From positions 1-21,885 of IMG/VR virus record IMGVR_UViG_3300023281_000855: a DNA stretch of 21,885 nt, one strand, 5' to 3'. A program made the translations under genes and the position numbers. Position 1 is the stretch's first letter, and every line of letters starts with the position of its first letter. Origin of the DNA: a virus. The notes under the pieces are model-generated. The model did not search any database and was not told where the DNA came from. It saw nothing but the letters and a program-made list of their open reading frames with translations. Of this stretch, positions 657 to 19,250 are shown piece after piece.

Positions 657-672
657 TCATCGAGGGCAAGCG

Positions 673-4652: not shown

Positions 4653-4684
4653 TATAAACATAACTTATATATATAGGGTTTCAC

Positions 4685-6493
4685 ATGAAATTACTCCCAA
4701 GCTTCTTAAAGAAGAAGTCAACAGCGCTAATGTCTGGAGGTAATCAAGACCCTTCATTCTGGCCCAGCTCTAATTCGTTAAGGTCTTTGTATCAACAAGT
4801 TGTAAACCCTACTAAGGCCAATATTCCCGTAACATCAGAGAGCGCCTATCAGTTGGCGGCTTATTGGTTGGCAGTTCGGGCCATCTCTGAAGATATCGCA
4901 AAATTACCAATTAATTTATTCACAGTTGACAGCGATGGCAAGAAAAAGCCGATTATAAAAAGCCCACTACAGCAAATCTTGACGCAGGGTTTTAATTCCG
5001 AAACTGATTCAATGACCGGACTTCAAACGCTTATTCAGTGGATGCTGACTTATGGCAATGCTTATGCGGAGATTCAGCACAATGCAATGGGTGAGATGCA
5101 ATGGATTCTAATACATCCAGAGCGGGTAAGCGTACAGCGTGACGGCAACGGGGAACTAGTTTATAGAATTACAGAAAGTAGCGAGCTCGACAAAAGAAGA
5201 ATTAGACATAACTATTCAACTTTAAAGGCTAATCAGATATTGCACCTTAAAGGCCCAGGTAATGGCGTCGTAGGTTATTCGATCGGCCAAATAGCCGCGC
5301 AAAGCTTAGGCATCTCAATAGCTGCTCAAGACTTTACCGGTTCATTCTTTGGTAACAGCCTTTCTTTAGGCGCGGCACTTGAGACAGACAAATCATTAAA
5401 TGCTGATCAAAAAGACGCCATTAGAAAAGATTGGGAAAAGAGTTACGGAGGTTCAAACAAGGCCGGAAAAATGGCAATCTTGGACCGGAGTTTTAAATTT
5501 AATCGACTTCAGATGAACTCGACAGATGCGGAGTTATTAAATACTCGTAAGTTTCAGATTGAGGAAATCGCGCGATGGTTTAGAATTCCACCGCATAAAC
5601 TAATGGATATGAGTAAATCAACGTTTAACAATGTTGAACAACAAGACATTAATTATGCTACCGATACGCTCACGCCTTGGATTAGTCGCTTAGAAAAACA
5701 ACTCAAGTTTAGATTCCACCGCAAAGACAATACCGTCATCGACATTGACGAAAAGGCACTAAGTCGCGGAGACATGGCGGCTCGTTCTAGTTTCTTAAAA
5801 GAAATGTTTGCAATGGGCGCAATGTCAGGAAATCAAGTTGCTTTGGCTGAAGGCTTGCCAGAATACAAAGGCGGTGAGGCTCGCTTTATCCCAATGAACT
5901 TAACACCTCTTGATCAAGGCTTAAAATCAGCCGCTTTAGATAATGATGTTAAAGAAAAATCTCTTGTGGAACCTGAGCCCGTAGACGAACCGGAACCAGT
6001 CGAGCCGGAACCTGTCGAGGATGAGGAACCAGAGCCAACGCCGGACCAAGCCCAAGGAGTATCAGAACAAGGCGCTATTGCTGCTTATCTCCCAAGCATG
6101 GCCGATTCAATCAGCCGGTTAACCCGTAAAGAGCAATTAAATCACGAATCAGCAGCGAAGAAAGAACCGCAGCAGATGAAAGAAGCCCTAGACAAGTTTT
6201 ATATAAAGTTTGAGGCAGAATTAAAAGACTGCTTACAGCTTCACGCCAATTATCTTTGCAGCATCTTAAATAAAGATATGTTTACAGAAGATAAACTTTT
6301 GTTTATGTCTCAGGAAATATGCCAGTTAGAAAAGAAAGAAAACCAAGCTGACATAATTGTTGAAATGCTTTTAAAAGATATTGACGAAGCTTTCGACGCT
6401 CCGAAGCTTGGAGAGATCCGGCAAGACGACGACGGGACCGCGTATAGTTTTACAATGAATGGATGGGTTGAAGTTGATACAGTCAAAAAATAA
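4685..6493 (+). CDS. Portal protein, HK97-like, with acidic Pro-Glu extension
   Basis: The portal forms the dodecameric ring at one capsid vertex through which DNA is packaged and to which the tail attaches. The first 415 or so residues match HK97-type portals: the conserved N-terminal YQLAAYWLAVRAISEDIA segment near 56-73, a clip/stem region with NAYAEI, and the FQIEEIARWFRIPPHKL segment before the crown. Residues about 428-455 form an unusual low-complexity repeat (EPEPVDEPEPVEPEPVEDEE) followed by a helical C-terminal domain of about 130 residues, making the protein about 200 residues longer than a typical portal. The AGGG ribosome binding site is weak. The last 35 bases overlap the collagen-like gene. 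Confidence 0.94.
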   Translation: MKLLPSFLKKKSTALMSGGNQDPSFWPSSNSLRSLYQQVVNPTKANIPVTSESAYQLAAYWLAVRAISEDIAKLPINLFTVDSDGKKKPIIKSPLQQILTQGFNSETDSMTGLQTLIQWMLTYGNAYAEIQHNAMGEMQWILIHPERVSVQRDGNGELVYRITESSELDKRRIRHNYSTLKANQILHLKGPGNGVVGYSIGQIAAQSLGISIAAQDFTGSFFGNSLSLGAALETDKSLNADQKDAIRKDWEKSYGGSNKAGKMAILDRSFKFNRLQMNSTDAELLNTRKFQIEEIARWFRIPPHKLMDMSKSTFNNVEQQDINYATDTLTPWISRLEKQLKFRFHRKDNTVIDIDEKALSRGDMAARSSFLKEMFAMGAMSGNQVALAEGLPEYKGGEARFIPMNLTPLDQGLKSAALDNDVKEKSLVEPEPVDEPEPVEPEPVEDEEPEPTPDQAQGVSEQGAIAAYLPSMADSISRLTRKEQLNHESAAKKEPQQMKEALDKFYIKFEAELKDCLQLHANYLCSILNKDMFTEDKLLFMSQEICQLEKKENQADIIVEMLLKDIDEAFDAPKLGEIRQDDDGTAYSFTMNGWVEVDTVKK

Positions 6494-7115
6494 AAAGCTA
6501 ACACAGCAGCAATTAAAAGGCATTAGGGCTCAAAAATCCTTAATGGTTGAATCTATGCGCGGCTTGACTGGCCCCAAAGGCGATCAAGGCGAAACAGGTT
6601 TACAAGGTATCGCCGGTGCTAATGGCTCTAATGGTTCGGCCGGTATGAATGGCGAAGCAGGCCCACGCGGTCCAAGAGGGCCACAGGGCGAAGCTGGAAA
6701 AAATGGCGCTGTAGGTGCAACGGGCAAACCTGGAGAAGATGGCGAAGACGGGCGGGGTATTGTCAGGTTACAAATTAGGGCGATGGATTTAATTGTCACT
6801 TACACGGACGGCGACAAGGTGAACTTAGGCCGCGTTGTAGGTGATCGCGGGCCAAAGGGCGACAAAGGGCAGTCCGGCTATGCTTTCGGAGACTCAACAA
6901 CAAACACAACAAACATCACGGAGGAAGTTTTGAGCCCAGAAGACAGCGCAAATTTAGCAGCGATAAGCCCAGCAATAGAGGAACTTATTCGAAATCAACA
7001 ATTTCAAATCGACAAGATGGTTCTAGAATTAAAGCTAGTTAGAACTCACATGTCTTTAGTAACGGGCGAAGAAATTAACTTAACCGATGTACAAGAAGAG
7101 GATTCAGAATTATGA
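6459..7115 (+). CDS. Collagen-like fibre protein with Gly-X-Y repeats
   Basis: Residues 35-99 are an uninterrupted run of about 22 Gly-X-Y triplets (for example GPRGPRGPQGE). There is then a beta module of about 27 residues (IVRLQIRAMDLIVTYTDGD), and four more triplets (GDRGPKGDKGQSG, 128-140). A helical C-terminus (about 160-200) could trimerise. This is the layout of phage collagen-like fibres, which form a thin trimeric stalk. The first ATG lies within the portal gene and lacks a clear ribosome binding site. A TTG at 6474, just after GGATGGG, or the ATG at 6543 could be the real start, so the N-terminus is uncertain. Its position beside head genes suggests a head or neck appendage. Confidence 0.85.
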   Translation: MDGLKLIQSKNKKLTQQQLKGIRAQKSLMVESMRGLTGPKGDQGETGLQGIAGANGSNGSAGMNGEAGPRGPRGPQGEAGKNGAVGATGKPGEDGEDGRGIVRLQIRAMDLIVTYTDGDKVNLGRVVGDRGPKGDKGQSGYAFGDSTTNTTNITEEVLSPEDSANLAAISPAIEELIRNQQFQIDKMVLELKLVRTHMSLVTGEEINLTDVQEEDSEL

Positions 7116-7705
7116 GCATGATTCAAGACGGAACGGGCAAAGGCGATTTTGCTGCTGTTACTGTAAACAACAGACTAAAAACCACAGGCGTTGACTTGAC
7201 GCTCGAAGAGGCAGCAACGGAAAGCGGCGACACTTACAATATTTCAAGTGACGAAATTACACTCAATACTACCGGCGAAAATGTCTTATTTTACGTCAAG
7301 AGTAACGAAGCAAATAACCTTTTAATTACAAATGTCATTGTAAATATTAAGGATTATACGGGCACCGATGGACAGCCAGAAATAAAAGTATATAGAGATC
7401 CAACGGCCGGAACTATCGTTACTAATGCAGTAGCAGCCACGCAATTAAATAGAAATTTTGGAAGTGCTAAGACTTTAGACGCTGATTTATACCAAGGCGT
7501 ACAAGGTGATACTATAAACGGCCAAAGCGGCACTATACAAGTTTATTTACCAAGTACCGCCGCACTAACCTTTAATGCTTTTAGCACTGGAACGGTATTA
7601 CCCAAAGGCGGAACTTTTGCAGTCTCATACACTCCACCGGCTGGGATTACATCAATGAAGGTGATTGTGGCAATAAACGCAACTCTTAACGGAAGCCAAC
7701 TATAA
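7112..7705 (+). CDS. Fibre/decoration protein A with N-terminal DGTG motif (197 aa)
   Basis: This is the first of three consecutive proteins that begin with the same short signature, here MIQDGTGKGD followed by VNNRLKT. The remaining 175 residues are predicted all beta, with long stretches such as NVLFYVKSNEANNLLITNV and a late aromatic-poor barrel-like pattern. It aligns through most of its length with the next gene (shared PTAG, NFG and LY-G positions), so the two are diverged tandem duplicates. The start overlaps the previous stop (ATGA). I know no named family, but similar DGTG-starting proteins occur among phage structural genes. It is probably a virion surface protein. Confidence 0.7.
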   Translation: MSMIQDGTGKGDFAAVTVNNRLKTTGVDLTLEEAATESGDTYNISSDEITLNTTGENVLFYVKSNEANNLLITNVIVNIKDYTGTDGQPEIKVYRDPTAGTIVTNAVAATQLNRNFGSAKTLDADLYQGVQGDTINGQSGTIQVYLPSTAALTFNAFSTGTVLPKGGTFAVSYTPPAGITSMKVIVAINATLNGSQL

Positions 7706-8292
7706 TGAAAATTCAAGACGACACAGGAAATGGCAAGGGCCTCAAGATAAATACTAACAATGAAGCTCATGTTTTCGCAGTTGTAGAGACTGAGATTGAG
7801 AGCGCAGCCGATAAAGGCATGGGCTATAACCTAAACAGCGGCGAAGTCTCAAGCATTGCTTCAGGAGATGCAACATTGCTTTATTTTAAAAATGATGAAG
7901 ATGAAACTTATGTCATTGATGCGGTGGCTTTAGGTGTTCGAGGCTTTACGGGATTATCTGACATGGCACAGGTTAGCGTTATTAAGAACCCTACAGCGGG
8001 CGATCTAATAACAGACGCGACAGCCGCAGACATGAAGAGCAACACAAACTTTGGAAGCTCTAACGAGTTAGAAGTGGGTAGCCTGCTTTACAAAGGTAAG
8101 AACGCCGGAACAATTACAGGTGGTGAGCTTCACGCGCTAATATATGCAGGAAATAACGGGCGTGTATTTGCTTCGTTAGTTATGGAGATACCACGCGGCG
8201 GATCTGTAGCTATAAAGATTGAATCAGATGCAACAGCGGGCACGGCCTATGCTGCACTTGTTGGGCATCTAAAGGACCCTAACAGAGAATGA
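7705..8292 (+). CDS. Fibre/decoration protein B, paralogue of protein A (195 aa)
   Basis: The start overlaps the previous stop by one base. The N-terminus repeats the shared signature (MKIQDDTGNGKGLKINTNNE). The body follows protein A in order: a GYNLNSGEV segment, LLYFKNDEDETYVIDAV, a NPTAGDLITDATAA segment, NFGSSNELEV, then a GGSVAIKI barrel end. No cysteine, no signal peptide and no membrane span are seen. It is probably a beta-sandwich virion component that assembles like protein A. Divergence between the copies is large enough to suggest different ligands or positions rather than recent duplication. Confidence 0.7.
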   Translation: MKIQDDTGNGKGLKINTNNEAHVFAVVETEIESAADKGMGYNLNSGEVSSIASGDATLLYFKNDEDETYVIDAVALGVRGFTGLSDMAQVSVIKNPTAGDLITDATAADMKSNTNFGSSNELEVGSLLYKGKNAGTITGGELHALIYAGNNGRVFASLVMEIPRGGSVAIKIESDATAGTAYAALVGHLKDPNRE

Positions 8293-8930
8293 TTGAAACG
8301 AACATAGTAGACGGCACCGGAGACAATCACCCGCTTAAGGTTAATAAAGGCGGTGAGATTGAGGTAATTGTGCATAATCACCCGCCATTGGTTGAAGATG
8401 TTATATCCCAGCCTTTCCGGCAATATTTCACGGATGACGGGACCACAGCGGGCTCGAATGATTGGACTATTGACGGCTCAACAAATAACGTTGATTTTTA
8501 CATTAAGGCGGTGCCTGAATTTGATATCTATATTAAGTCTATATCTGTCGTAATTGGTGACGGTGGAAGCCCAGCTTTAAATAAGTATGGTGCGCTAACT
8601 GCTCTTACCAATGGCGTGGAATGGTCCACTTTTGACCAAGCAAACGGAAGTTATATTTTACATGATGGCATAAAATCAAACTTAGAATTTATAAGAATAG
8701 GCGTTGATACTGCCGGAATTGGTACAGGCACAGACGCTTTTCTAGCTGATGTCTCCGGCGGTGGAACTGAAAAGAGCTATCTTCCAACCATTGACATGTC
8801 GGAAACGTTCGGGATGCAATACGGGGTAAGGCTCCGGAAAGGCTCGACAGATAAAATTGTATTTACGGTTAAGGATGATTTGACGGGTTTAATTACCCAT
8901 AACGCAATAGCATACGGTATAAGGATTTAA
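8289..8930 (+). CDS. Fibre/decoration protein C with the same N-terminal motif (213 aa)
   Basis: The N-terminus (IVDGTGDNHPLKVNKGGEIEV) repeats the shared signature, but the rest of the protein differs from A and B. After a HNHPP segment it continues as a beta-rich domain (about residues 45-213) with YITFDDG-like and long glycine-rich loops, ending YGIRI. Common N-terminus with variable body is the pattern of a docking element joined to different outer domains. The ATGA overlap couples it to protein B. No known domain is recognised in the body. Probably another virion appendage. Confidence 0.65.
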   Translation: MIETNIVDGTGDNHPLKVNKGGEIEVIVHNHPPLVEDVISQPFRQYFTDDGTTAGSNDWTIDGSTNNVDFYIKAVPEFDIYIKSISVVIGDGGSPALNKYGALTALTNGVEWSTFDQANGSYILHDGIKSNLEFIRIGVDTAGIGTGTDAFLADVSGGGTEKSYLPTIDMSETFGMQYGVRLRKGSTDKIVFTVKDDLTGLITHNAIAYGIRI

Positions 8931-8934
8931 TAAG

Positions 8935-9441
8935 ATGGCCACAAAAGAAATACCACTAAGAGGGTGGACGAAAGAGAAGAGATGGGTGCCACGCAAGAAA
9001 GAATTTAGACGGCAGCGGGTTATTGTCGGTTATGCTTTAGTGTCGGCTGAAGATTTTGATAAAGTCTCAGAAAGAAGTTGGCACAAAAGCGCGGACGGTT
9101 ATGCGATGTCTGATTATCCAACCAGGACAGGAATGCATAAACTTATAACTGGTTATGACATGACAGATCATGCAAACCATAACAAGCTTGATAATACTAG
9201 AAGCAATTTAAGGAAATGTACAAGTAAGCAAAATAATCAAAACCGATTACCAAGCGGGGCAATTAATTACAAGGGTGTCTCCCTCTGTAAACAAACAGGA
9301 AAATATAGAGCCTGTAAAAATAGAGTTCATATAGGCCGCTATAGTACAGCCGAAGAAGCTGCGCACAATTATAATTTATATGTTCTGTCTCTACCAGATC
9401 ATGAATTTGAATATTTAAATGAGGTAGCATTATGTCTGTAA
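8935..9441 (+). CDS. Second HNH homing-type endonuclease with AP2 domain
   Basis: The 168-residue product has a short N-terminal DNA-binding-like basic region (WTKEKRWVPRKKEFRRQR), an HNH core (MHKLI at 67-71, DHANHNKLDNTRSNLR at 78-93, then CTSKQNNQNR) and an AP2-like domain (about 112-150, YKGVSL, GKYRACK, IGRYSTAEEAA). The usual DHING is DHAN here, with the key His and Asn kept. It lies between protein C and the beta-solenoid gene on the same strand, 4 bases after the former and overlapping the latter by 10. It interrupts no obvious gene, so it inserted at or replaced an operon junction. It is only distantly similar to the HNH gene at 3013. Confidence 0.9.
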   Translation: MATKEIPLRGWTKEKRWVPRKKEFRRQRVIVGYALVSAEDFDKVSERSWHKSADGYAMSDYPTRTGMHKLITGYDMTDHANHNKLDNTRSNLRKCTSKQNNQNRLPSGAINYKGVSLCKQTGKYRACKNRVHIGRYSTAEEAAHNYNLYVLSLPDHEFEYLNEVALCL

Positions 9442-10310
9442 AAACATGGATTGGAACTGACAGCGGGAACGAAGGCGATTATGGAACGGCGGCAAACTGG
9501 AGCCCCTCAGGCGTACCAATTGCAGCCGATGACGTTATTATCGCCAATAGCTCACAAGACATCACAGGAACACTTGACCAGTCAGCGGTAGCGCTTGCAA
9601 GTATCACAATTGACCAGAGCTACACCGGTTTAATTGGCTCAAGCGAAAGCGACTTTTTAGAGATCGCGGCAAGTGCGGCGGTAATTGGTCAGCGCAGATC
9701 GACCACGGGAAGCTTTACCGGATCGAAGCGTTTGAACTTAGACTTTGGTAGTTCGACAGCTTGCCAGATCACAGTGAATGGCACGGCCTCGACAGGTCAG
9801 GACTCGAACAGGCAACCGCTAAGAATACGGGCCGTCAATGCCTCAACTGATTTACAAGTCTATGCGGGCTCACTTGCGATTAGTGATGACTCAAGCAATT
9901 CAAGCACACTTGGCGACATCTCAGTCAATGGCGGTTCTGTCAATGTTGGGGCAAGCGTAACACTTACCAACCTGATTACATCCGGCGGCATTATCAATAT
10001 AGATTCAAGCGTGACTACAGCGACAATAAAAGGCGGTACGGTTAATTTTTACGACTCTACAGCGGCCTCAACTATTGGGACTTTAACAGCTTCAAGCGCT
10101 GCAATAATCAATCATTACGCGACTGGTACAATTACAACGCTTAATCATAACGGCGGAACTATTGATCTAACCAAAACTCAGCTAGCTAAGACGGTAACGA
10201 CTTACACAGCCGACAAAGGCGCGGTATTAATCACCGATACCGGAACAGTCACGCTTACAAATGATATAGCGCTCGCATCTACTAAAAAACTAACTATAAG
10301 TATAAACTAA
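9432..10310 (+). CDS. Beta-solenoid-like fibre protein (292 aa)
   Basis: The N-terminal segment (TWIGTDSGNEGDYGTAANW, then SPSGVPIAADDVII) matches a pattern common at the start of repeat-rich surface and spike proteins: Trp, Asn-Trp, Gly, Pro and Asp-Asp. The rest is low in charge and very rich in Ser, Thr, Gly, Ile and Val in short alternating strands (for example GGTVNFYDSTAASTIGTL), which is typical of a right-handed beta-helix. No catalytic motif is visible. The 10-base overlap with the HNH gene and an 8-base gap to the next gene keep it in the operon. A trimeric spike or fibre is likely. A receptor or glycan target cannot be inferred. Confidence 0.7.
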   Translation: MSVKTWIGTDSGNEGDYGTAANWSPSGVPIAADDVIIANSSQDITGTLDQSAVALASITIDQSYTGLIGSSESDFLEIAASAAVIGQRRSTTGSFTGSKRLNLDFGSSTACQITVNGTASTGQDSNRQPLRIRAVNASTDLQVYAGSLAISDDSSNSSTLGDISVNGGSVNVGASVTLTNLITSGGIINIDSSVTTATIKGGTVNFYDSTAASTIGTLTASSAAIINHYATGTITTLNHNGGTIDLTKTQLAKTVTTYTADKGAVLITDTGTVTLTNDIALASTKKLTISIN

Positions 10311-10319
10311 GGACATACC

Positions 10320-10598
10320 ATGCAATACGGATCAAAAATACAAAACACAGACATTAACAATCTAGAACGCGCTTCAGTTCATGAGCTTTGGGAAAATGGC
10401 GACAGTGCGAGAGTGTTCACCAAGGCGGAGGGCTGGCCTCGCGCTTTACGTGTTGACGTTGCCGGGACTCTTGTTATCAAAGATCAGCAATCTTCACCAG
10501 TTGAAGTTACTTACAATGTTATCCAAGGTGAAATTTTGCCGATTGCCATTTCTAATATTGCGGCGTCTAGTACTGCCTCAGTAGTAATATTTTGGTGA
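10320..10598 (+). CDS. Small spike-base-like virion protein (92 aa)
   Basis: The middle and C-terminal part reads RALRVDVAGTLVIKD, then VTYNVIQGEILPIAI and ASSTASVVIFW. From memory this follows the pattern of small beta proteins grouped with the head-spike base protein of the Rhodobacter gene transfer agent (Rcc01079-like: R-L-V-aGTL, v-GeiLPi, T-As). In that particle the spike base sits on the capsid surface and carries a fibre. If correct, it would anchor one of the neighbouring fibres (beta-solenoid before it, PKD/leucine-rich protein after it) to the head. The resemblance is a pattern match only, with no alignment done. Short phage tail-fibre accessory proteins are an alternative. Confidence 0.6.
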   Translation: MQYGSKIQNTDINNLERASVHELWENGDSARVFTKAEGWPRALRVDVAGTLVIKDQQSSPVEVTYNVIQGEILPIAISNIAASSTASVVIFW

Positions 10599-10602
10599 TA
10601 TT

Positions 10603-11442
10603 ATGTTAGGACTAGCAAACAGAATGAGCCTTAGTCTCGGCGCTGCTAACAATGGAGTTGTTGTTTTTGGTGAAACTGACTTTGTCACCACCTGGAACAC
10701 TGAGAACCTAGGCGGCACCGGATCGGCTACTAAGGTAATCCTATTGCCTATGTCGGCAGGTGTTGAGGTTGATTGGGGTGACGGGACAGTTAATAATCTC
10801 AACACCCATACTTACTCGACAGGCGGAGTCAAAACCGTTAAGATTGCTGGTGCCGTTACGAACTTTAGGTTTAATGATCTCGGTGATAAGCTAAAAATTA
10901 CAGATGTCTCTAATGTTGGCGGCTTGGTCGTTGATTCAAGTTCTATGTTTAGAGGTTGTGCAAATATGACTTGGACGGCCACGAGTGCGCCTTCTTTCAC
11001 AACGGCGGCCCCCACTCAGCTATTTAGGGGTTGCACAGTATTTAATGGGGCGATTGGTGATTGGGATGTAAGCTCAATCTCTGGGAGTATGGCATCTATG
11101 TTTTTTGATTGCGCAGCGTTTAATCAAAACCTGAATTCTTGGGATGTATCCGGTGCTACAAATATGGTCGGTTTATTTAGGGATTGCGCAGTATTTAATC
11201 AAGATTTGTCTGGTTGGGATGTTTCGGCCGTTACAGATATGACCAACATGCTTTTAAACTCATCATTTTCTCAAACCAACTATGATTTATTATTAGTTGC
11301 TTGGGATGCTCAGACGTTACAAAGTGGGGTGCCATTCCATGCAGGTAGTGCCACTTATGGCGCAGGCGCACCAGCCACGGCAAGAGCGAACCTAGTAGGA
11401 GCACCGGATTTATGGACAATAACAGATGGAGGTCCAGCCTAA
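10603..11442 (+). CDS. PKD domain plus BspA/DUF285-type repeats (279 aa)
   Basis: Residues about 45-83 form a PKD-like beta-sandwich (VEVDWGDGTVN, then HTYSTGGVKTVKI). Residues 116-216 hold four repeat units of 25-26 residues with the BspA/DUF285 pattern (FxxC, FN, WDVS, M). The C-terminal end (AWDAQ, FHAGSATY, ARANL, WTITDGG) is the usual cap of BspA-like surface proteins. BspA-like proteins bind host or matrix proteins in bacteria and protists, so in a virion this would be an outer binding domain. A Cys recurs at each repeat (119, 144, 170, 195). There is no signal peptide, which fits a virion protein rather than a secreted one. Origin by capture from a cellular gene is plausible. Confidence 0.82.
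   Translation: MLGLANRMSLSLGAANNGVVVFGETDFVTTWNTENLGGTGSATKVILLPMSAGVEVDWGDGTVNNLNTHTYSTGGVKTVKIAGAVTNFRFNDLGDKLKITDVSNVGGLVVDSSSMFRGCANMTWTATSAPSFTTAAPTQLFRGCTVFNGAIGDWDVSSISGSMASMFFDCAAFNQNLNSWDVSGATNMVGLFRDCAVFNQDLSGWDVSAVTDMTNMLLNSSFSQTNYDLLLVAWDAQTLQSGVPFHAGSATYGAGAPATARANLVGAPDLWTITDGGPA
11023..11250 (+). repeat. Three BspA-type repeat units in the 10603 gene
   Basis: Codons 141-216 hold three consecutive units of 25-26 codons, with near-identical bases at GATTGCGCAG-GTTTAATCAA around 11108 and 11184. The DNA similarity between the last two units shows recent expansion or conversion. An earlier, degenerate unit precedes them. Confidence 0.75.
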
Positions 11443-11642
11443 TGATTGCAAATACAGACCCCAAAGATAAAATGTGTTGTGTGCTAGTTTATAATGATGG
11501 TTATGTCATCGTTCAGCAGTGCAATAGATTCCAAGAAACAAGCACGTCATTTACCCTTGAGACTTTTCTCACAATGAAAGCGATGCAGGCAAGAGTTGAT
11601 GAGCTAGGATTAAAATATAAAGAAGGATGGAACAATGTTTAA
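11442..11642 (+). CDS. Small uncharacterised protein before the protease (66 aa)
   Basis: The ATG at 11442 overlaps the previous stop (TAATG) and has a GGAGG ribosome binding site at 11428-11432. That makes it better than an in-frame ATG 30 bases upstream inside the previous gene. The product has a beta hairpin at the start (CCVLVYNDGYVIVQQ) and a C-terminal helix (about 40-58, FLTMKAMQARVDELGLKYK). No family is recognised. It may be a small adaptor or scaffolding-like protein of the head region, but no evidence goes beyond position. Confidence 0.6.
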   Translation: MIANTDPKDKMCCVLVYNDGYVIVQQCNRFQETSTSFTLETFLTMKAMQARVDELGLKYKEGWNNV

Positions 11643-12486
11643 TAATCAATATTTAATGATCGATGAGCTTTATCTAAACGGGATAGCTCAGAAGTTTACA
11701 CCGGCAATGGTCAACACTTTAGAAAAGACACTTGCAAAAATGGAAGCGGGCGAAGCTGTCAGCCTAGGTAAGCCAGTATTACAGAAAGAAGGCTCGCGCG
11801 CAATGATCAGCATTGACGGGCCGATGATGTATAACCCCTCAATGTTTGACAAGTTATTCTATCAAGCGGTATCGACTCAGGAAGTTCAGGCCGCAATTTT
11901 AGACGTTGCCAAAGATCCAAAGATTAAAGCGGTTGTAAATAACTTTAATTCTCCAGGCGGTGAAGCTCACCAGATCCATAAAGTAGCGGCCGACATGAGC
12001 CGACTGTCAGCAATGAAAGCCGTTGCTTCGGTTAATACTGGCATGATGTGCAGTGCGGCGTATTTTATCGGATCTCAAGCCAGTAATGTTTTTTCAACTG
12101 ATAGCCTAAACGAAACAGGTTCGATCGGTACGGTTACACTTATTGCTGATCATAGCAAAGCCGCAGAGATGGCAGGGATTAAGATTCACAAGATTGCAAC
12201 AGGTGAACTAAAAGCAGCCGGAGCAATGGGCACAGAGTTGACGACTGGAATGATTGCACATATTCAAAAGAAGATTAACAAGATGCAAGAAAATTTCTCA
12301 AATGCTGTTAGCTCAAAGCGGCCTAATGCCGATATGAACGACGGTTCAGAAGCTAGAAGCGGTGCAAGTTTCTTTCAGGAAGACGCGGAAAGACTCGGCT
12401 TATCTGATGGCGTAAAGTCAATAGAGGAAGCTTTTCAATTCTTAGAACAAGGCAACAGAGCAAGCAGATTGCGTCAAAGTATCTAA
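11635..12486 (+). CDS. Prohead protease, S49 (SppA/lambda C-like) family
   Basis: Capsid maturation proteases cut scaffolding and capsid N-termini inside the prohead. The 283-residue product shows the S49 signature: an early substrate-binding strand with NSPGG (105-109), nucleophile Ser140 in MMCSAAYF, a GSIGTV segment (162-167) and general base Lys193 in GELKAAG. The Ser-Lys dyad spacing of about 53 residues suits SppA-type proteases. Unlike lambda C there is no long C-terminal scaffold after about residue 260, so the scaffold function probably lies in the capsid protein's N-terminal delta region. It is placed directly before the capsid gene, as in HK97-type phages. The AAGGA ribosome binding site is good. 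Confidence 0.92.
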   Translation: MFNNQYLMIDELYLNGIAQKFTPAMVNTLEKTLAKMEAGEAVSLGKPVLQKEGSRAMISIDGPMMYNPSMFDKLFYQAVSTQEVQAAILDVAKDPKIKAVVNNFNSPGGEAHQIHKVAADMSRLSAMKAVASVNTGMMCSAAYFIGSQASNVFSTDSLNETGSIGTVTLIADHSKAAEMAGIKIHKIATGELKAAGAMGTELTTGMIAHIQKKINKMQENFSNAVSSKRPNADMNDGSEARSGASFFQEDAERLGLSDGVKSIEEAFQFLEQGNRASRLRQSI

Positions 12487-12500
12487 ATATTTTATACAGT

Positions 12501-12529
12501 TTGACTTTTGTATAAGTTGAACTTATAAT
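12501..12529 (+). promoter_or_regulatory. Near-consensus promoter before the capsid gene
   Basis: TTGACT at 12501-12506, 17 bases, then TATAAT at 12524-12529. This is a near-perfect sigma70 promoter with ideal spacing, and the strongest I see in the window. Transcription should start near 12536, about 120 bases before the capsid ATG. It would boost capsid production over the upstream genes. Confidence 0.82.
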
Positions 12530-12535
12530 AAAGCA

Positions 12536-12655
12536 ATTGTTGTTTGTTGCTATAGAGCAGCGGCGGCAAACTAAACATACATACTTAAATAGTTAAGACT
12601 ACCTAATACGGATCGGTTCCGTATATGGCGGTCTTTTTTTTTGGAGAATAAAAAC
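12536..12655 (+). promoter_or_regulatory. Structured capsid leader or small RNA
   Basis: The stretch between the promoter and the capsid ATG can fold in two parts. A first hairpin pairs GTTTGTTGC (12542-12550) with GCGGCAAAC (12563-12571), 9 pairs including two G-U. A second, larger hairpin followed by nine T is a complete intrinsic terminator (12595-12642). Between them CTTAA (12584-12588) could pair with TTAAG (12593-12597), which would remove the base of the terminator stem. The result is either a stand-alone RNA of about 105 bases that ends at the terminator, or a regulated leader that must be read through to express capsid. The folds are from reading the bases, not from an energy calculation. 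Confidence 0.55.
12595..12642 (+). terminator. Intrinsic terminator directly before the capsid RBS
   Basis: Outer stem AAGACTACC (12595-12603) pairs with GGCGGTCTT (12627-12635) with one mismatch and one G-U. Inner stem ATACGGA (12606-12612) pairs exactly with TCCGTAT (12618-12624) around the loop TCGGT. Nine T follow (12634-12642), and the capsid ribosome binding site GGAGA begins at 12643. This is a textbook Rho-independent terminator, in an unusual place between a strong promoter and the gene it should express. Confidence 0.82.
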
Positions 12656-13918
12656 ATGGATAAGATCCTATTAAAACAAGAAGAAATCAAGACGCTTATG
12701 GGCACTCTTGAAGGTCTTGAGCAAGGCTCAGCCGAGTTTAAAACTGCTCTTGATTCTGTCGAAGCTTCTCAAGCCGAGCTTGTAAGTTTGCAGGAAGACG
12801 CGGATAGATTCGCAGCCGTCCAGAAGTCGCTAAGTTCTTTTAGCATTCCTAAGACAGCTCAAGCAGGACCAGTACAAGGCGCGCCCACTACTGTCGTTTC
12901 CGGCTTTACTAAAGATCCTAAGTTTGGCTTTAAGTCAGGCGGTGATTTTTTACAGTCAGTCGTCAAGCATGGTAAAAACCCTATGCAAGATGAAAGACTC
13001 GCGGGCCTTGCAGCTTTGCAGACAAGCGGAACTCATACAACAATTGCCGACGGCTTAATGATTCCTACTGAATTCGCAGAAGGTCTATTGATTAATGAGT
13101 CTGGTATTACTGACGATTGGGTCAGCAAAATGGGCATTGAGTCCACCTCAAGCAATAGCAAGACTTTTAAAAGAAGTGCTGCTAATACTACAGGCGGAAC
13201 AACTGGCATCGTTGCAAGTCGTATCGCTGAAAATACACAGATGTCTTCAACTAAAGAAGTATTTGAAACTACTACTTTACCACTTGCTAAGCTTTATGCT
13301 TACTCTGAAGTTACCGAAGAAGACTTGAGTGATGTTGCATGGCTCGAAGGTCATCTACAGAAGCAAGCTCCTAAAGTTATTCGCGCAAAGTTTGCCGGTG
13401 AATTGCTCAACGGAACTGGTGTCGGTGAAGCTCAAGGCATGTTTAATGCGAACAACGCAAATAAAATTGCTGTTACTCGTAACGCTGCCACAAATGTAAA
13501 AGCTGAAGATATCGCCGCAATGTACGCTCGCGCTGTTATTTCTCCTTCTTCTTTCTGGCTTATCAATCGTGATGTTATGGCTAAGTTGCCATTGATGACT
13601 GTTGGCGACGTTCCTATCACTTGGGAATCTTACTTTAAAGATGGTATGATTGGTTTTCTTAATGGTCTCCCTGTTTATCAATCCGAAGACTGTGAAGCTC
13701 TAGGTACTCAAGGTGATGTTAGATTGATCAATCCTGAAGGTTATCGCGTACTTGAGAAAGTTGGCGGCGAGCAATTCGCGTCATCTATCCACGTTAAGTT
13801 TGATTATGACCTAACGGCCTTTAGATGGACTCACCGTATCAATGGAATTAGCTGGTCTAACGCTGTTTATACACCTCGTAAAGGCGCTACACTTTCGCCA
13901 TTCGTTGAACTTAATTAA
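12656..13918 (+). CDS. Major capsid protein, HK97 fold
   Basis: This is the main shell subunit. The ATG at 12656 sits 8 bases after GGAGA, and an in-frame TTG at 12641 is too close to the terminator to be the start. The 420-residue product has a helical delta-like N-terminus (residues 1-62, KQEEIKTLMGTLEGLE and similar), a linker, then the mature capsid from about residue 89 (KFGFKSGGDFLQSV). Conserved HK97-fold segments follow: an E-loop region, TLPLAKLYAYSEVTEEDL, GTGVGEAQGM, and a late P-domain (GFLNGLPVYQSED, RVLEKVGGEQFA). Cutting of the delta region by the 11635 protease is likely. The Lys-Asn crosslink cannot be judged. Expression should be highest from its own promoter. Confidence 0.95.
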   Translation: MDKILLKQEEIKTLMGTLEGLEQGSAEFKTALDSVEASQAELVSLQEDADRFAAVQKSLSSFSIPKTAQAGPVQGAPTTVVSGFTKDPKFGFKSGGDFLQSVVKHGKNPMQDERLAGLAALQTSGTHTTIADGLMIPTEFAEGLLINESGITDDWVSKMGIESTSSNSKTFKRSAANTTGGTTGIVASRIAENTQMSSTKEVFETTTLPLAKLYAYSEVTEEDLSDVAWLEGHLQKQAPKVIRAKFAGELLNGTGVGEAQGMFNANNANKIAVTRNAATNVKAEDIAAMYARAVISPSSFWLINRDVMAKLPLMTVGDVPITWESYFKDGMIGFLNGLPVYQSEDCEALGTQGDVRLINPEGYRVLEKVGGEQFASSIHVKFDYDLTAFRWTHRINGISWSNAVYTPRKGATLSPFVELN

Positions 13919-13930
13919 GGAGTATTTATT

Positions 13931-14359
13931 ATGAACGTATCATCTAATGCAACTGATCTAGTATCAGTACAAGGTATTATTGAGCCGGTTGCCGGTGCAG
14001 CTACTTACACAACGAGCTATTTCTATGCTGGCGATGCCAACGCATGGCTAGCGCTTGTTTCTGTCGGTACTGCCGGAACTACTACAAACGCCAAGATCGA
14101 ACAAGCTTCAGATTCTTCTGGGACTGGTGTAAAAGATTTGAGCGGTTCAGCTATCACAGAGATTAACGGCGACGGCGAATCTGCAATGATTCAGTTCAAG
14201 CCTGGTGATCTCGATGTAGCCAATGACTTTACACATGTAAGGTTAAGTATCACAACTGTCGGCGTAACAAATGTAACTGGTGGTGTTTTGATGGGTGCTT
14301 GTGTTGCACGTGCCCCTCTAGCCGCTGGTGCTAAAGTTGACGAAACAGTCACAGTATAA
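13931..14359 (+). CDS. Probable head decoration protein (142 aa)
   Basis: An AAGGAG ribosome binding site 9 bases before ATG and location right after the capsid gene suggest strong co-expression. The product is small, acidic and Thr/Ala/Gly-rich, with a beta pattern and no hydrophobic helix (for example NAWLALVSVGTAGTTTNAKIEQ and DFTHVRLSITTVGVTNV). Small proteins right after the capsid gene in HK97-type phages are commonly decoration or head-stabilising proteins. The call is from size, composition and position only. No named decoration family is recognised. Confidence 0.6.
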   Translation: MNVSSNATDLVSVQGIIEPVAGAATYTTSYFYAGDANAWLALVSVGTAGTTTNAKIEQASDSSGTGVKDLSGSAITEINGDGESAMIQFKPGDLDVANDFTHVRLSITTVGVTNVTGGVLMGACVARAPLAAGAKVDETVTV

Positions 14360-14375
14360 ATAAAAGGGGCATCAA

Positions 14376-14939
14376 ATGGCACTTAAAGTAATAACCCAAC
14401 CGGCTACAGAGCCCGTTACAAACGCGGAAGCGGATCTATGGATGCGCTATACTGGGTCACTACAAGATAACGTCATTGATGCCCTGATTACTGCGGCTCG
14501 GCAATCTGTCGAGTCGTGGATTAATCGAACTTTAGTAACCACGACATATGAATACTATTTGAATGATCTCTGCGCACTGATGGAGATACCTACAAGCACC
14601 GTTCAAAGTATCACCTCAATTACTTACATCGATACAAACGGCGACACTCAAACCCTTTCTAGTACTCTTTACGGCTTAGATAATGTAAGCGTTAAGAACT
14701 CAGTTTACTTAAAGCCAGAGCAGACATTTCCAGCGGTCCAAGTCCAGCCGAACGCGGTAAAGATTACCTTTCCGGCGGGATACGGCGCGGCGGCTGATGT
14801 TCCGGATTGTTTAAAGACAGTTATTAAAATGCGAGTCTCTGAGCTATTCGAACACAGAGAAGCAAACACCACAGCACCAAGACACGCTAACGACCAATAC
14901 ACGGCACTGATGAGCCCTGAAGCGGATTACAGGTTTTAG
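14376..14939 (+). CDS. Head-tail connector, phiE125 gp8 / HK97 gp6-like
   Basis: Connector proteins form a ring under the portal. The product begins LKVITQPATEPVTNAEADLWM, the typical start of the phiE125 gp8 family, and has an AARQSVESWINRTLV helix (about residues 42-56), a beta hairpin segment, and an ending of KMRVSELFEHREA (about 150-162). Length of 187 residues suits the family. The AGGGG ribosome binding site lies 9 bases before ATG. It is followed after 3 bases by the head-tail joining gene in the standard neck order. Confidence 0.88.
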   Translation: MALKVITQPATEPVTNAEADLWMRYTGSLQDNVIDALITAARQSVESWINRTLVTTTYEYYLNDLCALMEIPTSTVQSITSITYIDTNGDTQTLSSTLYGLDNVSVKNSVYLKPEQTFPAVQVQPNAVKITFPAGYGAAADVPDCLKTVIKMRVSELFEHREANTTAPRHANDQYTALMSPEADYRF

Positions 14940-14942
14940 ATT

Positions 14943-15275
14943 ATGGAAGCGGGCAAGCTTAGACACGAGGTTACAATTCAGCAGCGAAACGATTCTGTTA
15001 ATAGCATCGGTGAGTCGGTCGCATCTTGGGCCACTTATGCCTTGACTTATGCTGATGTGGTAAACCTTTCAGGAAACGAATTAGTCCAAGCTCAACAGGT
15101 TAATAGTTTTATCAATAGCCGCGTTCGTGTCCGGTTTGATTCTGGGATACGGGCAGACATGAGAATTTTATACAAGTCAAGACACTACAATATTATTTTT
15201 GTTAATGACATCGACGAACGCGACGAAGAAATGATTCTTCTTTGCAAGCGTCAGGAGAGTTCAACCAATGGCTAG
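14943..15275 (+). CDS. Head-tail joining (head-closure) protein, SPP1 gp16-like
   Basis: The product starts GKLRHEVTIQQR and includes SWATYALTYADVVNLSG and MRILYKSRHYNIIFVNDIDERDEEMILLCKR. These are hallmark segments of Phage_H_T_join proteins, which make the ring that closes the capsid after packaging and connects it to the tail. Length of 110 residues is normal. It overlaps the next gene by 8 bases, as is common in this order. Confidence 0.93.
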   Translation: MEAGKLRHEVTIQQRNDSVNSIGESVASWATYALTYADVVNLSGNELVQAQQVNSFINSRVRVRFDSGIRADMRILYKSRHYNIIFVNDIDERDEEMILLCKRQESSTNG

Positions 15276-15711
15276 AGACAATAGTTTTTTTAGAGTCCAC
15301 GGAGCGAAAGAGATAGCCGCAGAATTAGACGAGCTTGCAAGGGGTGCGAATAATGTAATCGTTCGTCCTGGCATGAGACAAGGCGCGGCTCACATTAGAA
15401 AGATCGCTAAAAGCATAGCGCCTGTTGATGATGGCCACTTAAAGAAAGCTATACAATCAAAAGTCGTCAGTAATAAAGGCCGCGGCAAAGGTGTAGTTGC
15501 CAAGATAGGCATATTAAAAAGAAGCTTCACCGATGAGAACGGGCGGCCAGTTATGGCATATGCCGGTGACCAAAATGACTTTCTAGGCGATGCTCTAAAA
15601 GAGGGGCGTCCCGAAGCTGTAAAGATTTTAATTAAAGTTACTCAGGAAAAGTTAAACACATTTCATCAAAAGCGAGCAGCGAAAGCAGCAGCAGCGGCGG
15701 CCAAACGATGA
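15268..15711 (+). CDS. Neck/tail-terminator-region protein, HK97 gp10-like
   Basis: The 147-residue product has the gp10-like layout: VHGAKEIAAELDELA near the start, MRQGAAHIRKIAKSIAPVDDGHLKKAI (helix, then the conserved aPvddG-L+ motif), a beta region, and an Ala/Lys-rich helical tail (KRAAKAAAAAAKR). It works at the head-tail joint or in early tail assembly. It overlaps the next start (ATGA). The poly-Ala end is a low-complexity feature without known role. Confidence 0.9.
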   Translation: MARDNSFFRVHGAKEIAAELDELARGANNVIVRPGMRQGAAHIRKIAKSIAPVDDGHLKKAIQSKVVSNKGRGKGVVAKIGILKRSFTDENGRPVMAYAGDQNDFLGDALKEGRPEAVKILIKVTQEKLNTFHQKRAAKAAAAAAKR

Positions 15712-16118
15712 GAGAACAATTATATTATCACTTAGCCAATACAGCAGGGTTGACCGCTTTAGTTTCAAGCCGTATTTATCCGCAACGCATACCGACCAGC
15801 GCGGCTTTGCCCTATGTCGGCTTTACCTTTGATGAGCGCACAGCCGCAAAAGATCAAGACGGTTACAATAAATATAATGAAGTGACTGTAACGATTCAAT
15901 CAAACGCGGCGACACTTGGCAGCGCTGTAGCAGTAGCGGAACAAGTTTTTGATTCACTCGCTATTCAAAATGTATTGATGGGCGAAGCACTTAATCAAGA
16001 GGAACTTTGTTCGACAACTCTTGAGACTGAATCAGATAATTTTGAACTATTTGACGGCTCCGAGGATGGAGTCAGAGAAGTAACACAAACATACACAATA
16101 AGATACTTGGAGGCCTAA
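15708..16118 (+). CDS. Tail completion protein, DUF3168/gp17-like
   Basis: The N-terminal REQLYYHLANTAGLTALV, SSRIYPQRIPTSAALPYVGF and the final QTYTIRYLEA fit the DUF3168 family, which forms a ring at the top of the tail tube and ends tail polymerisation. The 136-residue length is usual. It stands between the gp10-like gene and the tail tube gene, as in HK97-like tails. Confidence 0.9.
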   Translation: MREQLYYHLANTAGLTALVSSRIYPQRIPTSAALPYVGFTFDERTAAKDQDGYNKYNEVTVTIQSNAATLGSAVAVAEQVFDSLAIQNVLMGEALNQEELCSTTLETESDNFELFDGSEDGVREVTQTYTIRYLEA

Positions 16119-16119
16119 A

Positions 16120-16548
16120 ATGGCAGCTGGAACTGGAATTAAAGAAGGACAAGGAATTACGGGCTCATGGGCCTCTATTGCCGCTGTAATTAATATACTG
16201 GACATAAATATGGATGGCGTAAGCGTATCGGATATTTACACCGGTGACCAAGACACGACCGGATACAAAACTTATGTTGGTTCAACTCTTAAAGAGGGTG
16301 GAACTTATACATTAAACATTAATTGGAATCTATTGGACCAGGCCGTATTAATGGCCGCTATTGGTACGACTGATACATTTACTATCACTTATCCTAAGCA
16401 TGCGTCTGGTAACACTACAGCGCCAACTGATGCTTTCAGTTGCTACATTAATGATGTATCTAAGACTGGCGGAGAAGGTGAGCTTATCAATGGCACAATT
16501 AAAATTAAGATTGCTGGAGACATCACAACAGTAAGCGAAGCAGCATAA
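16120..16548 (+). CDS. Major tail (tube) protein
   Basis: The 142-residue product has a beta-sandwich pattern (VINILDINMDGVSVSDI, TYTLNINWNLLDQ, GTIKIKIAGDITTV) typical of siphovirus tail tube proteins, which stack in rings around the tape measure. A GGAGG ribosome binding site precedes the ATG. The chaperone pair and tape measure follow. There is no sheath gene next to it, which supports a non-contractile tail. The family is called from position, size and beta pattern. Confidence 0.85.
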   Translation: MAAGTGIKEGQGITGSWASIAAVINILDINMDGVSVSDIYTGDQDTTGYKTYVGSTLKEGGTYTLNINWNLLDQAVLMAAIGTTDTFTITYPKHASGNTTAPTDAFSCYINDVSKTGGEGELINGTIKIKIAGDITTVSEAA

Positions 16549-16578
16549 ACTAAAATATTATAACTGGGCAAGTATATA

Positions 16579-16908
16579 ATGAATATTGATGATTATAAAA
16601 AGATAAATGAAGACTGCATAAAAACTATTCCTATTAATGGGAAAAACCACTACCTGAGAATAGGCGGTGTTTTAGACTTTGATTTACTATCCTTAATGCA
16701 AGATGACAAGATTGACGGCAATGACAGGATGATAAAATTTCTTTGTCGCATGATTTGTGATGAGAATGGCGAGCGTGTTTTTGAATCTGACAACAAAGAG
16801 CATTATAAAATAGTTCAAAAGCTTCCTCACGATGTTCAAAACATTCTTACTTTACACGTGCAAGATGCTGTATTTCCTAAAAAAAAAGAATCAAAGGTAG
16901 TGAAATAG
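16579..16908 (+). CDS. Tail assembly chaperone, short (G-like) form
   Basis: The 109-residue product is soluble and helical (FDLLSLMQDDKIDG, MIKFLCRMICDENGERVF). It corresponds to lambda gpG, which covers the tape measure before tube polymerisation. It ends in Lys-rich codons on a nine-A run with the stop 18 bases further on. Most ribosomes should make this form, and a fraction should slip to make the longer product at 16579-17192. Confidence 0.88.
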   Translation: MNIDDYKKINEDCIKTIPINGKNHYLRIGGVLDFDLLSLMQDDKIDGNDRMIKFLCRMICDENGERVFESDNKEHYKIVQKLPHDVQNILTLHVQDAVFPKKKESKVVK

Positions 16909-17192
16909 AGTTTGTCTTTATCCTTGCTAAAGAGTTGGGTAAGTCAGTAAAAGAACTCTTTAGTAGTATGAATTTATATGAGTTTCAAATGTGGCTGAAG
17001 TACTATAATGAAAACCCCTTTGGCGAATATAGAAAAGATTTGCAATCCGCTCTTATGACTAAGAATTTACTTGCCCCTTGGTCTAAGAGTGAATTGTCTT
17101 TAAATAGTTTGTTGCTAGTCCAAGAAGAAACAAAACTTCCAAGTACAGAAGAATTAACCTTGAAAATTCAAGGAATGATAAGAGGTCGTTAA
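16579..17192 (+). CDS. Tail assembly chaperone, frameshifted (GT-like) form
   Basis: A -1 shift on the A run joins the short chaperone (103 residues, 16579-16887) to a second reading frame that is open from the slip site to 17192 (about 101 residues, starting RIKGSEIEFVFILAKELGK). The second frame has no good start of its own. A TTG at 16935 lacks a ribosome binding site, and the open frame extends upstream to the slip site without a stop. This is the conserved G/GT organisation upstream of the tape measure. The T-like part (MNLYEFQMWLKYY) recruits the tail tube in lambda. Total length is about 204 residues. Confidence 0.85.
16879..16888 (+). promoter_or_regulatory. Programmed -1 frameshift site (nine A then G)
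   Basis: The reading frame is CCT AAA AAA AAA GAA, so A-AAA-AAA (16881-16887) is a usable slippery heptamer for a -1 shift. A small hairpin TCTTTA/TAAAGA (16915-16920, 16928-16933) lies about 27 bases downstream. That is weaker and farther than usual, so the long A run may be the main driver. Confidence 0.82.
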
Positions 17193-17193
17193 A

Positions 17194-18279
17194 ATGGCAG
17201 ATGGAAAAACACGTTCAGTTTCAGTAGTCTTTCAGGCGTTTACTGATAAGTTTACGAACAAGACAAAGAAAGCCGGTACTACTATTGGAGGCTTTGCAAA
17301 AAAGGCCGTAGCTATTGGCGGCGGTTTCTTGGCTGCTCGTGCGGGACTTGCTCAGTTTAGAAAGGCATTCGAAAAGCTGGATGAGATTGGGAAACTGTCG
17401 GACGTTCTTGAAGTATCTCCGGACTTTTTGCGCGGCTTAGATTTAGCGGCCACTCAGACCGGCTCAAGCTTTGCCACTGCACAGAAAGCTTTATCTCGTT
17501 TCGTTCGTTCAGTTGGTGAAGCCAAGAGCGGCACAGGTGAAGGAATACAAGCCTTAGAGATTCTTAATGTTCAGCTCAAAGACATCGAGAACCTAAGCAC
17601 AGAGGACCAATTTTTCAAGATTGCCAATAGCATTAAATCAATGGAAGACCCAACACTTAGAGCAGCAGCAGCGGCTAAATTATTTGGTCGAAGCGGTCAG
17701 GACTTATTGAATTTATTTGCGGAAGGTGAAGAGGGGATAAAGAAATTTATTGAACAGCAAAAAGAACTTGGCGGCGGCGGTATTTCGAGAGGAGACATAA
17801 GAATGATTGAGTCCGCAAATGATTCCGTCGATAAGATGGGCCGAGCATGGGAGGGAATTATTCAACAACTCTCCATTCAGTTCGCACCGCTACTAGATGA
17901 CATGGCGCGCGGTATGACTAATCTCGTAAAGCTCGCTAAAGACTTCGGTATTGAGTGGAAAATCTCACAATTAGCTCTAGAAGATGTAATATCAGATGTA
18001 TTTTTTGGGGGGAAAGGTAAAGATATTACTCTAGGGTTAAGCACAGAGGGGAAAGGTGAAGAAGATAAAATTCAGCCTCTAGCAATTGCGCCAGCCTCAA
18101 TTAAAAGTTTTTCAGAGGCGGCCAGAGCGGGAAGCTCCAAGGCTTTTGATTTACTTAATCCTAACACTTCCAACTCTGTAGCAAATCAAACACTTAAGGC
18201 CACCGAAGAAACTAATAGCATATTGCAGGCCATAAGAGATAAAGACGGAATAAATTTTACAGAGGTTAATTTTAAATGA
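17194..18279 (+). CDS. Tape measure protein (short, 361 aa)
   Basis: The tape measure fills the tail tube and sets its length. The product begins with charged helical sequence, has a hydrophobic helix at about 28-55 (TTIGGFAKKAVAIGGGFLA), then a conserved-looking middle (KLSDVLEVSPDFLRGLDLAATQ, LRAAAAAKLFGRSGQDLLNLF) common to tape measures, and a Gly-rich break near 193-196 (GGGG). By the usual rule of about 1.5 angstrom per residue it predicts a tail of roughly 54 nm, short for a siphovirus. It follows the chaperones by one base of spacing. No lytic transglycosylase or peptidase domain is seen. Confidence 0.85.
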   Translation: MADGKTRSVSVVFQAFTDKFTNKTKKAGTTIGGFAKKAVAIGGGFLAARAGLAQFRKAFEKLDEIGKLSDVLEVSPDFLRGLDLAATQTGSSFATAQKALSRFVRSVGEAKSGTGEGIQALEILNVQLKDIENLSTEDQFFKIANSIKSMEDPTLRAAAAAKLFGRSGQDLLNLFAEGEEGIKKFIEQQKELGGGGISRGDIRMIESANDSVDKMGRAWEGIIQQLSIQFAPLLDDMARGMTNLVKLAKDFGIEWKISQLALEDVISDVFFGGKGKDITLGLSTEGKGEEDKIQPLAIAPASIKSFSEAARAGSSKAFDLLNPNTSNSVANQTLKATEETNSILQAIRDKDGINFTEVNFK

Positions 18280-19250
18280 GCGTAATATTAGCAAGACGAA
18301 AGGATGACAAGACCGGCGACGATAACGCATCATTAAGAAAGCTTAAGGATGTTTACAGGATTGAGGTAGATTCAGCAAGCGACGACCAGAGCACTATTCT
18401 CAATTCAAATTATTCTGGCCTTCCCCAAGTTGGCGACTCTCATCCTAAGGACCCACTTGTTACAGTCAAAAGCCGTTCAGTCAAACATCTTGGCTCAGGT
18501 GACCCCAATAGATTCCATTGGCAAATGACTGTTAATTATGACAGCAGCAGATCGGGGCTATCTGATAGCGGCGGCGGTGACGATGAAGCAGGCACGATAA
18601 TAAATGTCCAGATTGGTACATGGACCGAATCGTATACAGCACAGAAAGATTTTGATGATAAGCTCTATAAAGATTCAGCCAACGGAAAAATCAAGGTTGA
18701 ATTAGAGCGTCAGCATACAATGATTACCGTAACAAAGAATACATTTAATCCCAATTTACAAATATCAGAAAAGAAGGGCCGCGTAAATTCTGCACCGGTC
18801 AATTGGCTTGGGTTTGATTTCAATAATGATCAGTTACTTTTTGCAGACTATACCGCCAATAGTTTAGGCAACAATAACTGGCAGGAGGTTTTCACTTTCA
18901 AGGGCCGCAAAGTTCCGGATTTAATAAGCGTTACACCGGATGAAGGACTTTCTAAAGGGTGGCAACTGCAAATATTAGACGCCGGATTCTTTGAGATTTT
19001 AGGCGATGGGAAAAGAGTTCCTATTTATGTAAAGCAATCAGACGGCAAGAAGGCCACGCGACCAGTTACGCAGCCATGGCCATTAGACGGTGGTGGGAAA
19101 GCAATACCACAGGAATCTATAGACGACCTTAGACAATTCATAGACTTTAGAAGCGTCTTAAATATGCCTTTTAATGTTTTTGCTTTCGACTTCACGCCAA
19201 TTTTTGAACCATTGCCAGGCGTTGGCGCAGGCGGCGGGGGTTTATTCTAA
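18276..19250 (+). CDS. Probable tail-tip protein, distal-tail position (324 aa)
   Basis: Position directly after the tape measure is that of the distal tail protein. The sequence is beta-rich with an acidic linker (SSRSGLSDSGGGDDEAG near 90-106) and a C-terminal half with SVTPDEGLSKGWQLQILDAGFF and FNVFAFDFTPIFEP. I do not recognise a standard Dit or tail-hub signature, so the function is inferred from place. The last residues are a glycine stretch (GVGAGGGGLF). It overlaps the tape measure (ATGA) and the next gene (TAATG). Confidence 0.55.
   Translation: MSVILARRKDDKTGDDNASLRKLKDVYRIEVDSASDDQSTILNSNYSGLPQVGDSHPKDPLVTVKSRSVKHLGSGDPNRFHWQMTVNYDSSRSGLSDSGGGDDEAGTIINVQIGTWTESYTAQKDFDDKLYKDSANGKIKVELERQHTMITVTKNTFNPNLQISEKKGRVNSAPVNWLGFDFNNDQLLFADYTANSLGNNNWQEVFTFKGRKVPDLISVTPDEGLSKGWQLQILDAGFFEILGDGKRVPIYVKQSDGKKATRPVTQPWPLDGGGKAIPQESIDDLRQFIDFRSVLNMPFNVFAFDFTPIFEPLPGVGAGGGGLF

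Follow-up and report, generated by a model that had tools for sequence, protein, structure and literature searches.

Genomic setting of the capsid leader

The locus studied here raises the question of why a near-consensus promoter should be followed, within a short leader, by a strong intrinsic terminator placed immediately before a major capsid gene. The window, that is the whole stretch of DNA analysed, corresponds to one linear, fragmentary virus record of 21,885 bases and carries an HK97-type structural cluster of the normal kind. Its gene order is small and large terminase, portal, tail-fibre-like and accessory genes, S49 protease, major capsid, connectors, tail tube, tape measure and tail genes. 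The S49-family prohead protease gene was assigned to 11635–12486 on the forward strand (Pfam Peptidase_S49, E = 4.1e-20) and the HK97-type major capsid gene to 12656–13918 on the same strand, with its ATG at 12656 (Pfam Phage_capsid PF05065, E = 8.2e-25). The intergenic gap between them is 169 nt long and houses a promoter, two RNA hairpins (hairpin I and a mini-hairpin), the terminator and a GGAG Shine–Dalgarno sequence, all in the forward orientation.

Promoter and terminator

The promoter (12501–12529) is of the sigma-70 type, with a −35 element TTGACT at 12501–12506, a 17-nt spacer and a −10 element TATAAT at 12524–12529. An earlier reading made from the DNA letters, here called the sequence-only reading, had placed it exactly to the base. 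Its score of 11/12 was the highest among the 47 promoter-like sites found on scanning positions 1–20000, making it the best match in the window, and a promoter was present at the same position in all ten distinct leaders described below, for example as TTGCAA/TATAAT or TTGCAT/TATACT in relatives. The total number of sites was at the chance level (43.6 ± 7.2 expected over the same positions), so the weight of this promoter lies in its score and conservation only. The transcription start is predicted at about 12536.

Further elements around the promoter were considered. On inspection by eye for Q-binding direct repeats between the −35 and −10 elements, an imperfect TTTGACTT/GTTGAACTT repeat could be seen in the window group and none in the L003 group. 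An inverted repeat, TTATACA-N10-TGTATAA (12493–12516), surrounds the −35 element and has the same place in several relatives; it was rejected as an operator candidate because in most single sequences of such AT-rich DNA it was indistinguishable from chance. In the initial transcribed region, also judged by eye, the only sequence resembling a −10-like sigma pause element was TAWAGA, which spans about +16 to +21 and is missing its final T.

The intrinsic terminator (12595–12642) was recognized from the sequence, a scan for hairpins followed by T-runs and the conservation of its pairs. It comprises a stem at 12595–12635 with one A–C mismatch and nine T at 12634–12642, and the GGAG (12643–12646) follows immediately 3′ of the T-run, as the sequence-only reading had described, correctly to the base. 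The T-run abuts the GGAG in every leader except that of L004. In the hairpin-plus-T-run scan no other sense-strand hairpin of the window had six or more uninterrupted T behind it, and no second strong terminator was found downstream of 12642. It was likewise the sole strong sense-strand hairpin with an unbroken T-run in each family contig covering the site. A scan for consensus terminators did not list it, probably because the rules of that scan bar stem interruptions.

Structure of the leader RNA

The leader had been proposed to be structured, and its predicted fold (12536–12660) was found to be significantly stable at −33.6 kcal/mol, with z = −3.1 relative to dinucleotide shuffles, of which 1 in 200 folded as well. 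Hairpin I (12537–12571) lies at the predicted 5′ end of the RNA and was identified by the fold, by pair conservation with double changes and by RNAalifold. The hairpin previously described at 12542–12571 was recovered, together with a feature absent from the earlier description: one 5′ arm is complementary to two alternative 3′ arms. Conformation A pairs 12537–12544 with 12562–12569 and 12546–12551 with 12556–12561; conformation B pairs 12542–12550 with 12563–12571. When the near arm is used, the stem is capped by the apical loop UAWAGA; use of the far arm produces a 9–13-bp stem enclosing a larger loop. In energy the two alternatives are similar, and both are conserved. Judged by its sequence, hairpin I has the anatomy of a two-state RNA, neither state being linked here to the terminator.

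The apical loop, UAUAGA in the window (12551–12556), matches UAWAGA in 10/10 leaders, and hairpins with such a loop and a stem of at least five pairs numbered only 10 in 1.6 Mb of other loci, both strands counted. Rfam covariance models gave no match to the leader at gathering score or at any E value up to 5, so that no known Rfam riboswitch, T-box or leader family was recognized. A genome-wide nut- or put-like repeat was also rejected, hairpin I occurring once, before the capsid gene, in the family records, whose early regions are missing. A peptide-coding attenuator was dismissed in agreement with the earlier failure to see a leader peptide: the open frames are not preserved among relatives, differing through a one-base indel even between the near-identical leaders of L028 and L029, and they have no Shine–Dalgarno sequence.

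Hairpin I is followed by an A-rich unpaired linker (12572–12583), variable in length in the alignments, and then by the mini-hairpin CUUAA-AUAG-UUAAG (12584–12597), which adjoins the terminator and shares 1–3 bases with its stem. The sequence-only reading had proposed that this short pairing competes with the base of the terminator as in an attenuator. The pairing itself is present and conserved as 5 bp in 10/10 leaders, with a double change at one pair, but it is too weak to open the terminator unaided. At about −1 to −4 kcal/mol, against about −15 to −20 kcal/mol for the terminator, it is weaker by at least 10 kcal/mol, and in folding it yields to the terminator once the terminator 3′ arm is made. 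A self-sufficient antiterminator is thus ruled out by the small overlap and the energy gap, and neither hairpin I nor the mini-hairpin by itself prevents terminator folding. The 5′ side of the mini-hairpin, CUU (CUY), can instead pair with the GAG of the Shine–Dalgarno sequence in 9/9 aligned leaders. An effect on translation is possible from this complementarity; in the window the pairing is weak, with the Shine–Dalgarno sequence about 75 % unpaired.

Conservation and covariation among relatives

Relatives were obtained by capsid-based and pattern scans of IMG/VR, yielding nine further distinct leaders, all on metagenomic fragments of uncultured tailed phages. The pattern of T-run, GGAG and ATGGAYAARAT found mainly unrelated genes, as well as L057 and L111. 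Two family members were not counted as distinct leaders, namely L030, a near copy of L029, and L111, whose contig ends inside the leader. Capsid identity to the window was 85 % for L002, 76 % for L003, 74–75 % for L028, L029 and L031, 70 % for L057 (partial gene), 64 % for L004, 52 % for L005 and 47 % for L120.

The comparison with related phages that the sequence-only reading had put forward as a check found all parts in the same order in 10/10 leaders: promoter, hairpin I with UAWAGA at the predicted +1, A-rich linker, mini-hairpin, terminator, 7–9 T, GGAG and capsid start. The terminator begins within the final bases of the mini-hairpin in every case. The predicted terminated RNA is 105–107 nt long in nine leaders and 127 nt in the strongly diverged L004, where about 20 extra bases lie in the unpaired middle, the least conserved part of the leader.

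In a structural alignment of the distinct rows, made by hand and leaning towards structure, pairing was kept in 51/51 cells of the distal and 20/20 of the proximal part of hairpin I, 15/15 of the mini-hairpin, and 39/40 of the lower and 32/33 of the upper terminator stem. All pairs of hairpin I are kept in either version, with double changes at 6 of the 9 distal and 5 of the 5 proximal pairs; the corresponding numbers were 1 for the mini-hairpin and 4 and 6 for the lower and upper terminator stem. Column shuffles matched the observed pairing in 0 (distal) and 2 (proximal) of 2000 trials for hairpin I, 701 for the mini-hairpin, and 1 (lower) and 0 (upper) for the terminator, a test that ignores descent; the well-separated lineages number no more than three, represented by the window group, the L003 group and L004. 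Support for the mini-hairpin is therefore one of conservation more than covariation. The clearest single case of compensation comes from the near-identical leaders of L028 and L029, which differ at two neighbouring pairs of the upper terminator stem, both of them compensated. RNAalifold on nine leaders gave the same hairpins, with hairpin I in conformation A, and six compensated pairs. Loss of the terminator stem in relatives, or change without compensation, had been named as evidence against the earlier reading; the stem is instead conserved, with compensatory changes.

A covariance model built from nine leaders, with L004 left out, returned the L004 leader as the top match in its own locus, at the right place, with E = 0.0009. 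This match was weak in a search of 0.6 Mb (E = 0.09), in which no stronger match occurred outside the family. Among six family records searched, the model found one match per record, only before the capsid gene, in the five with a complete leader; the sixth, L111, is cut inside it. Conservation and compensation together support the central idea of the sequence-only reading, and we regard it as almost certain from these comparisons that promoter, structured leader and terminator form one real, selected unit.

In L005 and L120, the leader and the first approximately 60 capsid codons stay similar to those of the window, against an identity of only 47–52 % over the whole capsid gene. The pattern points to recombination within the capsid gene, at a site immediately following the delta domain. 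Positions 1–1000 of L120 (reverse complement) are GC-rich and encode nothing phage-like, and the contig may be chimeric.

Occurrence in other phages

Twelve isolate phages drawn along the ranking by terminase similarity had no terminator with a T-run ahead of the capsid gene, so this layout is not a common one; in six of them at most about 30 bases lie between the protease and capsid genes, or the two overlap. L007, a distant metagenomic relative with 31 % capsid identity, has a strong GC-rich terminator ending about 50 nt before the capsid gene, upstream of locus position 5001. The two observations suggest that the arrangement is unusual, perhaps without being confined to the family of the window. 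In the distantly related Bradyrhizobium phage L117, the protease–capsid gap contains a strong hairpin that no T-run follows.

Searching 84,980 species genomes with capsid and terminase for related prophages, which might have indicated the host, gave no match. At the DNA level there was no match in isolate phages, and a single match in plasmids (E = 0.5) was judged to be chance. Scanning for the promoter plus UAWAGA gave matches outside the family that had neither hairpin I nor the terminator, and a literature search on terminators before capsid genes retrieved nothing relevant.

Comparison with known systems

The PR′–tR′ regions of phages lambda and 21, with their Q proteins, provide a precedent for gate logic built from a promoter and a terminator (PMC6606751), and AlpA of Pseudomonas aeruginosa for the bypass of an intrinsic terminator directly upstream of a gene (PMC7969949). 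The window shares with these systems a strong promoter, a short leader and an intrinsic terminator before structural or lysis genes, with a short RNA as the predicted default product. As at PR′–tR′, a strong sigma-70 promoter has an intrinsic terminator no more than about 200 nt downstream, ahead of late genes, and the arrangement is conserved. The position differs, however: lambda-type control usually lies ahead of all late genes, whereas in the window it lies inside the structural operon, right before the capsid gene and with terminase, portal and protease upstream. The leader also differs in carrying a conserved structured RNA, and neither a Q-binding repeat nor a −10-like pause element was recognized in it by eye. 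Nor was a Q-type antiterminator of family PF06530 found in six family records, all of them fragments without early regions.

IsrK of prophage Gifsy-1 is a precedent for a small RNA that is also an mRNA (PMC4825925). There, too, transcription from a single promoter can end early, giving a small RNA, or read through to give an mRNA, a likeness in anatomy alone: IsrK reads into anti-repressor genes and the window leader into the capsid gene, and no sequence similarity is claimed. In IsrK the short form also acts in trans on the long one through a trans-activating pairing. The put element of HK022 consists of two adjacent stem-loops of about 70 nt forming a V (PMC9378689). Like put, the window leader has a structured RNA shortly after a phage promoter that could act in cis on termination. 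Unlike the two long stem-loops of put, which act on distant terminators, it is followed by its terminator immediately, and a put-like element was rejected since fold and conservation give a single hairpin separated by a linker of variable length from a weak hairpin of 5 bp, rather than two adjacent stem-loops. The lambda N/nut system resembles the window in having a small hairpin with a conserved A-rich loop upstream of a terminator, and differs in that loop and stem depart from boxB and that the window element is present in a single copy per contig. A nut site, in which boxA precedes the boxB hairpin, was not recognized, no boxA-like sequence being seen in the leader by eye.

Interpretation of the leader

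The leaders retain both a near-consensus promoter and a strong terminator even as paired substitutions replace the stem sequence, and a gate is the best reading of such a pair ahead of a gene that is expressed late and at a high level. The most likely reading, which we put forward tentatively from the sequence, is thus a conditional-termination leader. A host-type RNA polymerase would start at the strong promoter near 12536 and by default stop near 12642, releasing an RNA of about 106 nt with hairpin I at one end and the terminator at the other. The capsid gene and downstream tail genes would be reached only if termination were suppressed, for transcripts started locally and upstream alike; as no later strong terminator follows, such a gate would govern all that lies from there to the window's end. 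We infer that efficient termination would be relieved by a phage late factor or a modified polymerase, probably acting through the conserved 5′ hairpin with its UAWAGA loop and two 3′ arms, and perhaps also through the mini-hairpin. A more specific proposal, that hairpin I belongs to a new class of phage RNA switch that toggles its pairings on a late signal or protein and modifies the polymerase or terminator to release the capsid and tail genes from a single site within the structural operon, seems unlikely on present evidence.

Other explanations were weighed against conditional termination; the options offered by the sequence-only reading, namely a phage small RNA, capsid dosage control and a 5′ stabiliser, each retain some probability. 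Joint function might be absent altogether, the promoter-like, hairpin and T-rich sequences being unrelated, and the chance-level number of promoter-like sites in the window would fit; the constant order of the parts and the compensated substitutions across the ten leaders, the fold z-score and the uniqueness of the strong terminator refute this, leaving it barely credible. A lesser but real possibility is a leader with a fixed leaky terminator, in which constant read-through supplies the capsid gene, the terminator trims or insulates upstream transcripts, the hairpins shield the 5′ end and keep the Shine–Dalgarno sequence open, and the T-run serves as a U-rich translation enhancer. Stem-loops at the 5′ end protect mRNA, and hairpin I begins at the predicted 5′ end; the T-run adjoins the GGAG in all leaders but one, and in L117 the hairpin of this gap has no T-run, which is what one would expect of an element for processing or stability. 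However, a lower dose would be set more simply by a weaker promoter than by a strong promoter and a strong terminator, protection has no need of two conserved alternative pairings in hairpin I, and the 7–9 T tract and stem repair kept in all leaders point to termination itself.

It is rather improbable that the terminated transcript of about 106 nt is a functional phage small RNA, with read-through giving the capsid mRNA as for IsrK. The near-constant distance from promoter to terminator in nine leaders, the hairpin at either end, the A-rich unpaired middle, the conserved apical UAWAGA and the prophage precedent would all suit such an RNA, but the middle is the least conserved part and accommodates the L004 insertion, unlike a base-pairing seed. 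Autogenous control, with hairpin I bound by the capsid protein, or by the N-terminal delta domain cleaved from it, to set termination or translation, is very unlikely. In its favour, the leader travels with the first approximately 60 capsid codons (the L005 leader is 89 % identical and the N-terminus similar) and the CUY segment can pair with the Shine–Dalgarno sequence. That pairing is weak in the window, however, and the leader is kept in L005 and L120 despite their divergent capsids, which makes the shell domain an unlikely ligand.

If conditional termination is correct, some HK97-type phages would control capsid and tail synthesis at a terminator inside the structural operon, which would explain a strong promoter without obvious control ahead of a late gene. 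The leader would then be an RNA element without an Rfam entry and would offer a small, transferable system for testing conditional termination, possibly involving a new antitermination RNA or protein.

Other features of the window

The interval between the large terminase and portal genes carries a reverse-strand block (3013–4507) with an HNH endonuclease gene (3013–3531) and three small ORFs of no assigned function. The block shows a local inversion of GC skew and has a promoter-like site at 4569–4542. In the relative L057, the terminase gene ends at 1180 and the portal gene starts at 1282, so that the two nearly abut and the block in the window looks like an inserted moron. A second homing-endonuclease-like gene with AP2 and HNH_3 domains lies amid the structural genes at 8935–9441. 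Between portal and protease, 6459–7115 encodes a collagen-like (Gly-X-Y) protein of tail-fibre type, and it is followed by several accessory structural-looking genes ahead of the protease, an unusual position.
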